64,000 bases of DNA from Flavobacteriales bacterium. GTDB lineage: Bacteria > Bacteroidota > Bacteroidia > Flavobacteriales_D > Crocinitomicaceae. Under the pieces are notes generated by a model. That model was not told where the DNA came from. It searched no databases and was given only the letters and a program-made list of their open reading frames with translations. Within the stretch, counting starts at the first letter, position 1; every line of letters starts with the position of its first letter. The stretch lies in assembly GCA_018883325.1 (NCBI GenBank), contig VEQH01000003.1, positions 1-64,000 on the forward strand, written 5' to 3'. The translations under genes and the position numbers were made by a program. Of the stretch, positions 33,802 to 64,000 are shown one piece after another.

Positions 33802-34851
33802 TCAAACTTTTAAAAGTTGATTTAAACGACCTTGATACGATTGAAAATAATTTCTTTTAGTGGTTTCATTTAGAAAAGAAGCAGAAACCAATTTTTCAAC
33901 AAAATCTGACTTGGAAATCATCAATGCCATAATATCCTGAAAAGTCTTTTCATTGATTGCTGCTTTTTCTGCTAGTTTAGCAAATTGCAAACCTATTTTA
34001 CCTTGGCTTAAATTTCTAGGCAGAAGACCATCATCTAACGCAAAGTCTTTATCTTCCACATGAATTCGGCTATTTAGCAAGTCATAAGCAGGACTCAGTC
34101 TATAATCTCCATGAGGTGTTTCGATTATGGAAAAATTCTTAAAGTGCGCATCGCCATTTGAAAAAAGATAATTGAAAACTAGAATTCTAAAAAGTTTAGG
34201 CGCTTCAATCTTATAAGTTGTTAAATAGTTGCGCATTATTTCAAATAGCTCTAAATAATTCCCGAGATACTTGTAATGTTCTCCGTGGGTTTGCGGAGTT
34301 CTCTTTGCTAAGGAAGCAAAGTCATCTTGAGCTAATTTTCCTGCCTGTCTGGTAGGCAGGGAACCATCTTCTTTAACATCAAATCTTTTTGTGATATATG
34401 CCGGAGTACCATCTTTAAAAAAAATCAATGCATTTTCTGCCGTTTCAATTCCATAAATCTGACGAGCAATTTGCATGGTTAAATGTTCATTCGCAGGCAT
34501 TTGATCAGACTTCTTACCAGCTCCTGGAATTGGTTTCAGAATATATGTACCTCGCTCATTTTCATTAATAAGCCTCAACTTGTTTTTTTCAAGTAATACG
34601 GAAAACTTTTCTTGTACACCTGATATCGACATGTGATTTCGATTTTCATCAAAAAGCTGATCCGTTTCTGGATTGGATAATGGAGAATCATAAGGTAATA
34701 CATGATGCACCTTTTTGCCCTGAAAAACCCGATTTAAAGCTGTTCGACTATAGGTGTTAAAACCTTTAGCTAATGTACCTGGACAAACTTCAATGGAAAA
34801 TGGAAAATTGAAAATTGACAATGGAGTAGAATTCTTTAATTTTTTGCTCAT
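33802..34851 (-). CDS. hipT: HipA-like serine/threonine kinase toxin lacking the N-terminal subdomain (HipT-like)
   Basis: 349 aa; MSISGVQEKFSVLLEK (Gly-rich loop with S-I-S), VFNYLFSNGDAHFKNFSI, YRLSPAYDLLNS; a separate upstream ORF encodes the HipA N-terminal-1-like domain. Confidence 0.85.
   Translation of the reverse strand: MSKKLKNSTPLSIFNFPFSIEVCPGTLAKGFNTYSRTALNRVFQGKKVHHVLPYDSPLSNPETDQLFDENRNHMSISGVQEKFSVLLEKNKLRLINENERGTYILKPIPGAGKKSDQMPANEHLTMQIARQIYGIETAENALIFFKDGTPAYITKRFDVKEDGSLPTRQAGKLAQDDFASLAKRTPQTHGEHYKYLGNYLELFEIMRNYLTTYKIEAPKLFRILVFNYLFSNGDAHFKNFSIIETPHGDYRLSPAYDLLNSRIHVEDKDFALDDGLLPRNLSQGKIGLQFAKLAEKAAINEKTFQDIMALMISKSDFVEKLVSASFLNETTKRNYFQSYQGRLNQLLKV
34340..34360. repeat. 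21-bp palindrome inserted in frame in hipT
   Basis: CCTGCCT-gtctggt-AGGCAGG; encodes the extra S-L-P-T-R-Q-A-G between FDVKEDG and KLAQDDFASL. Confidence 0.7.
34792..34826. repeat. Heptamer tandem array (5 units), AATTGAC orientation
   Basis: aatggaa aatggaa aattgaa aattgac aatggag. Confidence 0.85.
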
Positions 34852-35198
34852 TTTTGTTTTGATGATTTAATGATAGAAATAAGCAATCGTAAAAGGTCTT
34901 TAATTTCTGCTTTAAAAGATTCAAAACTATCTTCATCCAAATATCCAGATTGTTGAAGCAAGTCTAACCAATATTCTGTTTCGTTTGCTTCTTTCAACCC
35001 TATGGATAATTTATGAATGAAATCGGCTTTACTTTCAGCATGCTCTGCCTCTCTCACAATAGCACCAATTGCAGTACCAGAACGAAGCAACTGTTTAGAT
35101 AAAATATATTCTTTCTTAGAATCCGTTAAATACTGATATAGTTTTACAATGTTTAAAGCAAATGCAAAACTTTTAGATTTTATAATATTTTCTTTCAT
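34848..35198 (-). CDS. Four-helix-bundle protein (23S rRNA intervening-sequence/S23 family)
   Basis: ORF 34848-35231, likely start MKENIIKSKSFAFALNIVKLYQYL (35198); ILSKQLLRSGTAIGAIVREAEHAESKADFIHKLSIGLKEANETEYWLDLL is the family signature. Stop overlaps hipT start (ATGA). Confidence 0.92.
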   Translation of the reverse strand: MKENIIKSKSFAFALNIVKLYQYLTDSKKEYILSKQLLRSGTAIGAIVREAEHAESKADFIHKLSIGLKEANETEYWLDLLQQSGYLDEDSFESFKAEIKDLLRLLISIIKSSKQK

Positions 35199-35219
35199 AA
35201 CCATAGTGTATTCTCTGTT

Positions 35220-35275
35220 GTCAATTATCAATTATCAATTGTCAATTCTCCTTCGTCAATTCTCCTTCGTCAATT
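35220..35275. repeat. Heptamer tandem array (8 units), GTCAATT orientation, inverted relative to 34792-34826
   Basis: gtcaatt atcaatt atcaatt gtcaatt ctccttc gtcaatt ctccttc gtcaatt. Confidence 0.88.
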
Positions 35276-35589
35276 TTTCGAACCGTCACCGCACCAATGC
35301 TGTCGTTTTTCGCTGTAGTTATTAGCAATCCGAAATAATCATCCCTATCGATTCTATTCAATTTACATACAACTTCCTTATTTGAACCTTCTGGTAGCAT
35401 GTTGTAAAAAAATGGAAAAAGGTATTTAGAATGAAATTCTTTTTCGGTTTTAGGTAAAGTTAGACTGATACTTTGCTTATCGTTGTTGGCTAACCAATTG
35501 TCATGATAACAAAATGAAAACGAACCATCATCGTGTTGGGTCAAGATACCAGCTTCTTCATGTTTGAATAATACTTTGACTGTTCTCAT
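35242..35589 (-). CDS. hipS: HipA N-terminal subdomain-like protein (HipS-like antitoxin component)
   Basis: 115 aa; VKVLFKHEEAGILTQHDDGSFSFCYHDNWL...ISLTLPKTEKEFHSKYLFPFFYNMLPEGSNKEVVCKLNRIDRDDYFGLL; overlaps the hipB stop by 4 nt. Confidence 0.85.
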   Translation of the reverse strand: MRTVKVLFKHEEAGILTQHDDGSFSFCYHDNWLANNDKQSISLTLPKTEKEFHSKYLFPFFYNMLPEGSNKEVVCKLNRIDRDDYFGLLITTAKNDSIGAVTVRKIDEGELTKEN

Positions 35590-35804
35590 TTAGCAGGCGA
35601 TATATTTTTAATTTTTAAGCAAAGCTCCATACCCAAGACATCGGCTAACTTTTGTAATGTTAGCAGTGTTGGATTTCCTTTTCCGCTTTCAAATTGTTTC
35701 AGCGTTCTCAAGCCAACCCCTGATAATTCTGCCAATCCTTCCTGTGTTATTTGAAGAATTTCTCTACGTTCCTTTATGGTTTTTATTAGTTCTGAAAAGT
35801 GCAT
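35586..35804 (-). CDS. hipB: HTH (XRE/HipB-like) transcriptional regulator
   Basis: 72 aa; ILQITQEGLAELSGVGLRTLKQFESGKGNPTLLTLQKLADVLGMEL. Confidence 0.9.
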   Translation of the reverse strand: MHFSELIKTIKERREILQITQEGLAELSGVGLRTLKQFESGKGNPTLLTLQKLADVLGMELCLKIKNISPAK

Positions 35805-61726: not shown

Positions 61727-63361
61727 ATGATTTCTGTAGATGCGTTAGCAGTTGAGTTTAGTGGTTCAGTACTTTTTAGTGATGTTTCTTTTGTAATTAA
61801 TGAAACAGACAAAATTGCACTTATGGGTAAAAATGGTGCAGGAAAATCTACAATGCTTAAAATTCTTGCAGGAATCAATAAACCAACACGCGGAAATATT
61901 TCTGCTCCGAAAGATGCTGTAATTGCTTATCTACCTCAGCATTTGTTGATGGAAGATAATTGTACTGTTTTCGAAGAAACGTCAAAAGCATTTCAGTCTA
62001 TTTTTGCGATGCGCGACGAAATAGAAGCAATAAACCACGAGTTGACTGTTCGAACAGATTACGATTCAGATGATTATATGAAATTGATTGAACGCGTTTC
62101 AGAAATCAGTGAGAAATATTATTCCATCGAAGAAATCAATTACGACGGTGAAGTTGAAAAAACCTTGAAAGGTTTAGGTTTTGAAAGAGAGGATTTCACG
62201 CGTTCGACTTCTGAATTCAGTGGAGGTTGGCGCATGCGAATCGAATTGGCAAAAATTCTACTTCAAAAACCTGATTTGATTTTATTGGATGAGCCAACAA
62301 ATCACTTAGACATCGAATCGATTCAATGGTTGGAAGAATTTTTAGTGAACAGCGCCAAAGCTGTTGTTGTGATTTCTCACGATAGAGCTTTCGTTGATAA
62401 TATTACCAATCGCACTATTGAAGTGACAATGGGAAGAATTTACGACTACAAAGCTAAATATTCACATTACCTTGAACTTCGAAAAGAACGCCGTGCGCAA
62501 CAGCAAAAACAATACGAAGAACAACAAAAATTCATTGCTGAAACTACTGAATTTATTGAGCGCTTCAAAGGAACTTATTCGAAAACAAATCAAGTGCAAT
62601 CGCGCGTTCGAATGTTGGAAAAACTAGATATTATTGAAGTGGACGAGGTTGATTCTTCAGCTTTGAGATTGCGCTTCCCTCCTACGCCACGCTCTGGAAG
62701 TTACCCTGTTACGGTTACAGAATTAAGCAAGCGATACGGCGATCACGTTGTTTTTGAAAAAGCTTCAATGACCATTCAACGTGGCGAAAAAGTAGCTTTC
62801 GTAGGGAAAAACGGTGAAGGGAAATCAACGATGATTAAAGCAATTATGAAAGAAATTGATTTTGAAGGCTTGTGTGAAGTTGGTCATAATGTTCAGATTG
62901 GCTATTTCGCTCAAAATCAAGCGTCGTTATTGGATGAAGAAATGAGTGTTTACGACACCGTTGACAACATTGCAGAAGGCGATATCCGCACAAAAATCCG
63001 AGATATTTTAGGTGCATTTATGTTTGGCGGAGAAGCAGGAACGAAAAAAGTGAAAGTGCTTTCTGGAGGAGAAAAAACACGTTTGGCAATGATTAAATTG
63101 TTATTGGAACCCGTAAACCTTTTAATTCTCGATGAGCCAACAAATCACTTAGATATGCGCACCAAAGACATCATTAAAGAAGCCTTGAAAGAATTTGACG
63201 GAACTTTAATTCTCGTTTCCCACGACCGTGATTTCTTGGATGGTTTGGTGACCAAAGTCTTTGAATTTGGAAACAAACGCGTGAAAGAACATTTCGAGGA
63301 TATCAAAGGATTTTTGGCGCTGAAAAAAATGGAAAACTTGAGGGAAATTGAAAAAAAGTGA
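61727..63361 (+). CDS. ABC-F family ATP-binding protein
   Basis: 544 aa; two Walker A (GKNGAGKSTMLKI, GKNGEGKSTMIKA), LSGGEKTRLAMIKLLLEPVNLLILDEPTNHLD. Confidence 0.94.
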   Translation: MISVDALAVEFSGSVLFSDVSFVINETDKIALMGKNGAGKSTMLKILAGINKPTRGNISAPKDAVIAYLPQHLLMEDNCTVFEETSKAFQSIFAMRDEIEAINHELTVRTDYDSDDYMKLIERVSEISEKYYSIEEINYDGEVEKTLKGLGFEREDFTRSTSEFSGGWRMRIELAKILLQKPDLILLDEPTNHLDIESIQWLEEFLVNSAKAVVVISHDRAFVDNITNRTIEVTMGRIYDYKAKYSHYLELRKERRAQQQKQYEEQQKFIAETTEFIERFKGTYSKTNQVQSRVRMLEKLDIIEVDEVDSSALRLRFPPTPRSGSYPVTVTELSKRYGDHVVFEKASMTIQRGEKVAFVGKNGEGKSTMIKAIMKEIDFEGLCEVGHNVQIGYFAQNQASLLDEEMSVYDTVDNIAEGDIRTKIRDILGAFMFGGEAGTKKVKVLSGGEKTRLAMIKLLLEPVNLLILDEPTNHLDMRTKDIIKEALKEFDGTLILVSHDRDFLDGLVTKVFEFGNKRVKEHFEDIKGFLALKKMENLREIEKK

Positions 63362-63439
63362 AAAATTGAAAGAGAAAAGTGAAGAACTGAAAGTTAAAAG
63401 TTGAGAACTAAAAGTTAAAAACTGAAAGTTAAAAGCGAA
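63356..63439. repeat. Heptamer tandem array (12 degenerate units), AAGTTAA consensus
   Basis: aagtgaa aaattga aagagaa aagtgaa gaactga aagttaa aagttga gaactaa aagttaa aaactga aagttaa aagcgaa. Confidence 0.88.
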
Positions 63440-63680: not shown

Positions 63681-63765
63681 ATTAGTATTTCACAAAAAGT
63701 TCAAAATTCATTTAGAAAAACTTTTGAACAAAAAGAATATCTATGAATTCTTAGATTTATTGGGA

Positions 63766-63800
63766 AAGTTAAAAGTTAAGAACTAAAAGTGAAGAGTTAA
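63766..63800. repeat. Heptamer tandem array (5 units), same orientation as 63356-63439
   Basis: aagttaa aagttaa gaactaa aagtgaa gagttaa. Confidence 0.82.
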
Positions 63801-64000
63801 ACTGAAAATGTAAAATCCTAATTAAAAATTAAACATTCAAAATTCTAAATTGTACTACCCTAAATAGAGTTGACCGTTTTGGTTATTATTTAATTTTAGT
63901 ATTTCAAATTCCAATTGGACAATTATAATTGAGATAGATTTTAAATTTATATTCTACACAAAAATCCTTTCAACGAATTAAGATTTATTCAAATTTTCTT

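Follow-up and report, generated by a model that had tools for sequence, protein, structure and literature searches.

The locus described here raises the question of how a 484-bp unit with inverted, repetitive ends came to lie between hipS and hipT of a hipBST toxin-antitoxin operon. The window, a stretch of 64,000 nucleotides from a Flavobacteriales bacterium (assembly GCA_018883325.1, contig VEQH01000003.1, positions 1 to 64,000), carries between these two genes an open reading frame (ORF) for a four-helix-bundle protein, bracketed by two tandem arrays of a degenerate heptamer. The unit very probably belongs, as one copy, to a family of small mobile elements that is widespread, the sole gene of which encodes a 23S_rRNA_IVP four-helix bundle and the ends of which are inverted 7- or 8-bp arrays. 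Array-ended units of this kind insert whole, with duplications of ∼5 bp at the sister sites examined, persist by vertical descent, and keep matching ends in spite of turnover of the repeat unit.

Anatomy of the Insert

All genes of the locus are encoded on the minus strand, in the order hipB, hipS, array, four-helix ORF, array, hipT. The four-helix gene (34848 to 35198; alternative TTG start at 35231) encodes a protein of 116 amino acids that scored 94.3 bits against PF05635 (23S_rRNA_IVP; cut-off 33.8) and 103.5 bits against TIGR02436 (cut-off 24). Its relative in the Protein Data Bank is 2rld, with 5 chains (E 3e-38). The upstream (5′) end of the unit (35220 to 35275) is an array of eight heptamers, separated from the four-helix start codon by a leader (35199 to 35219). 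On the plus strand it consists of six RTCAATT units (GTCAATT in places 1, 4, 6, and 8, ATCAATT in places 2 and 3) and two CTCCTTC units in places 5 and 7, which read as AATTGAC/AATTGAT plus two GAAGGAG units on the gene strand (AATTGACGAAGGAGAATTGACGAAGGAGAATTGACAATTGATAATTGATAATTGAC). The downstream (3′) end (34792 to 34826, right edge 34825/6) holds five units, AATGGAA, AATGGAA, AATTGAA, AATTGAC, and AATGGAG, with a period of 7 by Tandem Repeats Finder, and is of the TCAATTT/TCCATTT type on the gene strand (CTCCATTGTCAATTTTCAATTTTCCATTTTCCATT). The two arrays are reverse complements in type. The lag-7 scores were 18.5 (upstream) and 19.5 (downstream) and the inverted match was 21; for each of the three, none of 5000 dinucleotide shuffles gave a value as high. 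Control DNA from related genomes, 400 kb in all, held only 4 lag-7 arrays with a score of 13 or more.

Both arrays are also coding sequence. The upstream array encodes the C terminus (KIDEGELTKEN) and the stop codon of hipS (35242 to 35589; Couple_hipA, PF13657, 74 bits), and the downstream array encodes N-terminal residues of hipT (33802 to 34851; HipA_C kinase toxin, 139 bits), the start codon of which overlaps the four-helix stop codon in an ATGA. The operon starts with hipB (35586 to 35804; HTH_3 antitoxin/regulator, PF01381, 51 bits), and the helix-turn-helix protein HipB, the Couple_hipA protein HipS, and the HipA_C kinase HipT follow each other in the order of a HipBST system. Unit counts, inversion, coding overlaps, and ATGA had all been described in the original prediction; sequence, repeat finder, and shuffles agree with it.

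Empty and Filled Sites

Matches to hipT were obtained in 30 genomes of the bacterial family, the window's own included. In the other 29, hipS adjoins hipT, and none of these 29 junctions holds a four-helix gene. In the closest empty relatives, hipS stops a few codons past the motif TIGAVTV, and hipT begins 5–15 codons ahead of CPGTLA. In the window, the final ∼9 residues of hipS and the initial ∼19 of hipT are therefore contributed by the insert, in line with the proposal that the insert provides the hipT start codon. At hipBST, the insertion would have exchanged the end of hipS for a new one and given hipT a new start, and translation would be coupled via the ATGA overlap.

Near-identical cyanobacterial plasmids supply both filled and empty sites for sister elements. 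The sequence AAAAAGTAATTAACAAAT is split by an element with GTAAT on both sides (locus L287 vs L293–L295, plasmids ∼98% identical), and GGTTCTAGGTTATGC is interrupted in the same way, here with TTCTA on either side (L291 vs L301–L303). At a third site the flanking pentamers are TAATG/TTATG (L305 vs L301). Precise insertion with a short target duplication of ∼5 bp, as is typical of insertion sequences and transposons, was thus found at three sister sites, and at the filled plasmid sites array, gene, and array arrived as one piece. L296 carries a decayed remnant of an element at the L287 site. Because the filled and empty plasmid pairs show these duplications, the unit is mobile, with the arrays as its ends. 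Sister elements enter the gaps between closely spaced genes. The occurrence of AAAATTGA in two empty hip sites had pointed to a target-derived origin of the array unit; this was rejected, since one element family has the same TCAGAAT/TCAGGAG units at two plasmid targets in Cyanobacteria that are unrelated to each other.

Distribution of Array-ended Four-helix Genes

The architecture was found well beyond the hip locus. In the window's genome, seven four-helix genes were present, most of them with inverted arrays but with differing units (GATTGCG, TTTTACA, AATTGAC, the 8-mer TAATGTGC, and GATTTTT/AATGCTT). At L004 only the upstream side carries an array, a long one of 8-mers; L002 is weak, and 8-bp units occur in both L004 and L006. 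Of the sequence of this genome, ∼427 kb was covered, in pieces. Four-helix genes were carried by 123 of 146 genomes of the bacterial family. At 76 four-helix loci, lag-7 arrays were present on the upstream side of 18% and on the downstream side of 25%, compared with ≤1% of 313 control genes; no arrays were found around these loci at lags of 4, 5, 9, 10, or 11. An inverted flank match of at least 16 was observed at 79% of the 76 loci vs 10% of the controls. For replication, 80 further Bacteroidota loci, found by a query with a different subfamily, were compared with 144 control genes. Inverted matching flanks were present at 84% vs 10%, here with period-8 arrays, at 28.7% on either side, in place of period 7. 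Among the control genes, two-sided arrays were seen in none of the 313 and in about 1% of the 144. The array-ended anatomy is thus general to the four-helix gene family, and the suggested comparison of four-helix genes with other genes came out clearly in favor of a mobile cassette with array ends, as did the 29 empty junctions and the filled and empty sister plasmids. The special status assigned to heptamers, which as a non-multiple of 3 can be read in several frames, did not hold. Since sister elements use 8-bp units equally commonly, frame-shifting by 7-mers is beside the point.

The repeat period follows the clade of the four-helix protein. When the 7/8 label was mapped on a tree of 151 four-helix proteins, 11 changes were required vs 29.1 with shuffled labels (0/500), on an alignment of ∼106 columns in which near-copies inflate the clustering. 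One clade of 75 members contained 47 period-8 and 2 period-7 calls, and the sister group, which includes the window's protein, contained period-7 calls only. Because the window's genome holds both periods, the period is a property of the element and not of the host. By eye, the 8-mers follow AAT[TG][TA]GNN and the 7-mers RATTRNN or TTAGNNN. The arrays are polar: G exceeded C in 63 of 81 upstream arrays, and C exceeded G in 67 of 85 downstream arrays.

Array-ended four-helix genes were also found in Cyanobacteria, Spirochaetota, Chloroflexota, and Alphaproteobacteria. Among copies on plasmids of other phyla, one from Nostoc has four perfect AATTCGT units on either side, and the layout recurs in Treponema and Chlorohelix; one-sided or weak arrays were seen in Trichormus, Calothrix, and Nostoc 53789. 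Three copies lie in defense loci, namely between cas2 and cas1 in Anabaena (L283), within a DISARM locus in Planktothrix (L285), and between cas10 and cmr3 in Picosynechococcus (L286). These are likely insertions, not defense genes. In Azospirillum, a copy with inverted GAGGACR/GGATGAC units lies inside the large subunit (23S) rRNA gene and is, by this location, a classical intervening sequence (IVS).

More complex arrangements around four-helix genes were also noted. At L042 and L052, a unit of ∼160–170 bp with the ends TAGTGACTAG and CTAGTCACTA is repeated many times around the gene, which at L052 is flanked by this unit in direct repeat. At L095, the four-helix gene lies between two copies of a ∼70-bp spacer with inverted AGCACTG/CAGTGCT arrays, an arrangement that resembles a composite formed by two array hairpins.

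Vertical Descent and Co-variation of the Ends

Gene names at the following loci were read from translated flanks. The four-helix gene lies between sdhA and sdhB at twenty loci, and thirteen copies share one sufB-adjacent locus. Protein distances track the host flanks, with Mantel r values of 0.60 and 0.77 (upstream flank) and of 0.98 at a third locus, which argues for vertical descent of the sdhAB, sufB-adjacent, and third-locus copies. Mobility of the cassette is therefore to be kept, and frequent hopping to be dropped, since many copies are old and vertically inherited.

At the vertically inherited sdhAB locus the unit turns over between species, with both ends changing together. The sdhAB arrays are built of TTAGGCA, TTAGGGA, GATAAGT, GGGTGTT, or TTAGCTC, depending on the species, and an end matched that of its own copy better than those of other species (17.6 vs 11.8, p 5e-5). 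Re-insertion at a hot spot is disfavored as the source of these differences, because the four-helix gene follows the host flanks. Within single genomes, ends matched their own partner better than other elements (17.9 vs 11.2, p 1e-4), and an exchange of arrays among the elements of one genome was rejected on these values.

Matching ends could also be kept by RNA. The arrays would pair into a long stem in the operon transcript, from which RNase III would excise the four-helix ORF as in rRNA IVSs, and selection for RNA pairing would keep the ends complementary. Consistent with this, the arrays pair in the minimum-energy fold of the window RNA (z −2.1), own ends form a duplex of better energy than foreign ends do (−62.7 vs −50.2), and the Azospirillum member resides within 23S rRNA. 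However, among 119 loci, the mismatches between ends comprised 165 would-be G·U pairs in the sense RNA vs 211 A·C mispairs, opposite to the prediction for sense-RNA pairing, and the wholesale turnover of units on both sides is unlike point-by-point compensation. Because the mismatches are not biased to G·U, copying at the DNA level is favored over selection for pairing, and the wobble count gives no support to sense-RNA pairing as the force that holds the ends alike. IVS-like processing of the transcript may still occur, since the arrays pair in the predicted fold, but an RNA element as the full explanation is somewhat unlikely.

Dispersed Arrays

Arrays without a four-helix gene were found at a few per 100 kb, several of them as short hairpins of inverted arrays. 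In genome G058, 9 of 11 gene-less arrays carry units of the genome's own four-helix elements (mean match 32.6 vs 11–16 for other genomes); G010, a relative of G058, reached 32.1 in the same comparison. On a Nostoc plasmid, AATTCGT doublets fall into four clusters, of which one surrounds the gene and another is an inverted pair without a gene; the control pattern had 0 occurrences. In the window's genome, such a tendency is weak, with near-matches to AATTGACAATTGAC numbering 159 vs 67.

Such arrays suggest a second explanation, in which the arrays are themselves the mobile or recombinogenic unit, similar to hairpins of miniature inverted-repeat transposable elements (MITEs) moved by another system, and often carry the four-helix gene along, as a passenger or as a protective RNA/DNA-binding cargo. 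Gene-less inverted arrays with loops of 0–70 bp, in G058 and other genomes, speak for it. So does a non-coding array stem in Nostoc flagelliforme: on pNFSY06, ∼130 bp with GGGGAAA/CCTTTAA arrays and AATACT..AGTATT ends lie at one of two paralogous sites (L320 vs L321) between repeated copies of GGGTTAAAATCC, as expected of a MITE-like array insertion. On the other side, the period and the grammar of the units go with the four-helix clade, and two-sided arrays were found with no other gene class (at most about 1% of either control set), which makes a passenger gene rather unlikely.

The window itself contains a further heptamer array pair (63355 to 63434 and 63765 to 63801) of the AAAGTTA / AAAGTGAAG type. 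It is direct, not inverted, and surrounds an ORF of 73 amino acids without a four-helix gene; similar arrays occur elsewhere in the window's genome (L215:89, L223:13434).

With respect to the hip copy alone, it could be argued that the gene is a domesticated regulator of hipBST and not a selfish insertion, given the common strand, the ATGA coupling, and the changed ends of hipS and hipT. Domestication is nevertheless very unlikely, because among the 30 hipT-bearing genomes only the window's own has the gene at this site and because the family is found equally in sdh, suf, metH, cas, and DISARM loci. Simple repeats grown by slippage beside the gene in tolerant intergenic spots, already disfavored, are scarcely credible: array length and sequence do vary fast and dispersed gene-less arrays exist, but the arrays are specific to four-helix genes, inverted, and polar, are absent from empty sites and arrive with the gene, and share their unit between both ends of one element, not between different elements of one genome.

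Discussion

The element resembles the rRNA IVSs in its protein family, its size of ∼430–480 bp, its complementary ends, and the heptamers upstream of the ORF in Coxiella burnetii, where strain-variable GACAGAT heptamers, 28-bp inverted ends, and excision from the transcript by RNase III have been reported (PMC4990558). The 484-bp hip unit likewise holds an S23p ORF in a stretch with complementary ends. It differs in that the window copy lies in hipBST and most others also lie in protein operons, not in rRNA; for IVSs, no description was found of two-sided array ends, of 7/8-bp period classes, of ends that co-vary, or of array dispersal. rRNA IVSs have been called selfish, with mobility as a hypothesis only (reviewed in PMC4990558). 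On the reading favored here, those 23S rRNA IVSs that carry an S23p ORF would be the members of the array-ended family that reside in rRNA.

Degenerate 7-bp arrays, often in convergent pairs, are known from the cyanobacterial short tandemly repeated repetitive (STRR) sequences, from Beggiatoaceae (TAACTGA, PMC4679880), and from Xanthomonas (GGGAATC, PMC4692102), with 70 cases of convergent pairs among 186 arrays in Xanthomonas campestris (PMC4692102). Their distribution over Cyanobacteria, Bacteroidota, and Gammaproteobacteria is patchy. In the searched parts of the latter two papers, no tie to four-helix genes or to insertion was found. In the searchable literature, which leaves out preprints and most subscription journals, no paper was found that ties the arrays to the four-helix gene, except for the heptamers upstream of the Coxiella ORF (PMC4990558). 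The protein family, the rRNA IVSs, IVP genes in cas loci (PMC3936711), and heptamer arrays are known; a description that unites them as one element family was not found in this literature.

A likeness to the system of REP-associated tyrosine transposases (RAYTs) and REPINs is found in a gene between inverted short repeats, in long vertical inheritance, and, in G058 and on a Nostoc plasmid but weakly in the window's genome, in repeats dispersed as gene-less inverted pairs. In contrast, a RAYT is an HUH nuclease, whereas the only protein of the four-helix element has no known catalytic site, and no HUH tyrosine nuclease gene is present at the hip locus; REPIN repeats are single palindromes, and those of the four-helix element are 7/8-mer arrays. 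Diversity-generating retroelements encode Avd, a related four-helix-bundle protein that forms pentamers and binds nucleic acid. The hip locus differs in that no reverse transcriptase domain was detected among the seven locus proteins tested, hip neighbors included; template and variable repeats were not sought. The unit is best read as an IVS-like mobile element, somewhat RAYT-REPIN-like, with a non-enzymatic, probably pentameric protein in the place of the nuclease.

Several observations weigh against this reading. By Pfam, the hip element contains PF05635 alone and no transposase of the DDE, HUH, serine, or tyrosine type, and it encodes neither a nuclease nor a reverse transcriptase. Even the closest relative with an empty site shares only 74% identity in HipT, and the hip insertion therefore has no close empty counterpart from which its exact ends and duplication could be read. 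Duplications come from three sites in all, one of them imperfect, and a Nostoc insertion (L280/L300 vs L297–L299) removed ∼220 bp of host DNA. Many four-helix loci are old and vertically inherited (Mantel r 0.60–0.98), and activity may therefore be low. The period could be inherited passively along with the array, and cognate dispersal in the window's genome is weak (19.1 vs 11.8–18.7).

In a mechanism compatible with the mobile reading, recognition would consist in binding of the oligomeric four-helix protein to the arrays, with each subunit taking up one unit. Because the protein has no recognized catalytic domain, an enzyme supplied in trans would cut or copy, and copying between the two ends at the DNA level would keep them alike. 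We tentatively propose, as a possibility somewhat short of probable, a new class of mobile element in which a non-enzymatic pentameric protein reads a polar 7-/8-bp array at both ends, moves or maintains the element via a borrowed enzyme, and copies end onto end, and which seeded rRNA IVSs and heptamer arrays across phyla.

The finding joins two puzzles that have been open for decades, the role of the IVS protein and the origin of the heptanucleotide arrays in Cyanobacteria, Bacteroidota, and xanthomonads. Both become testable, as purified proteins would be expected to recognize their own arrays with the period of their clade. It also explains the presence of "23S_rRNA_IVP" genes in cas, DISARM, sdh, suf, and toxin-antitoxin operons; in such surroundings, it is easy to take them wrongly for functional partners. 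At hipBST, the end of a mobile element has turned into coding sequence, as a new tail for hipS and a new start for hipT.
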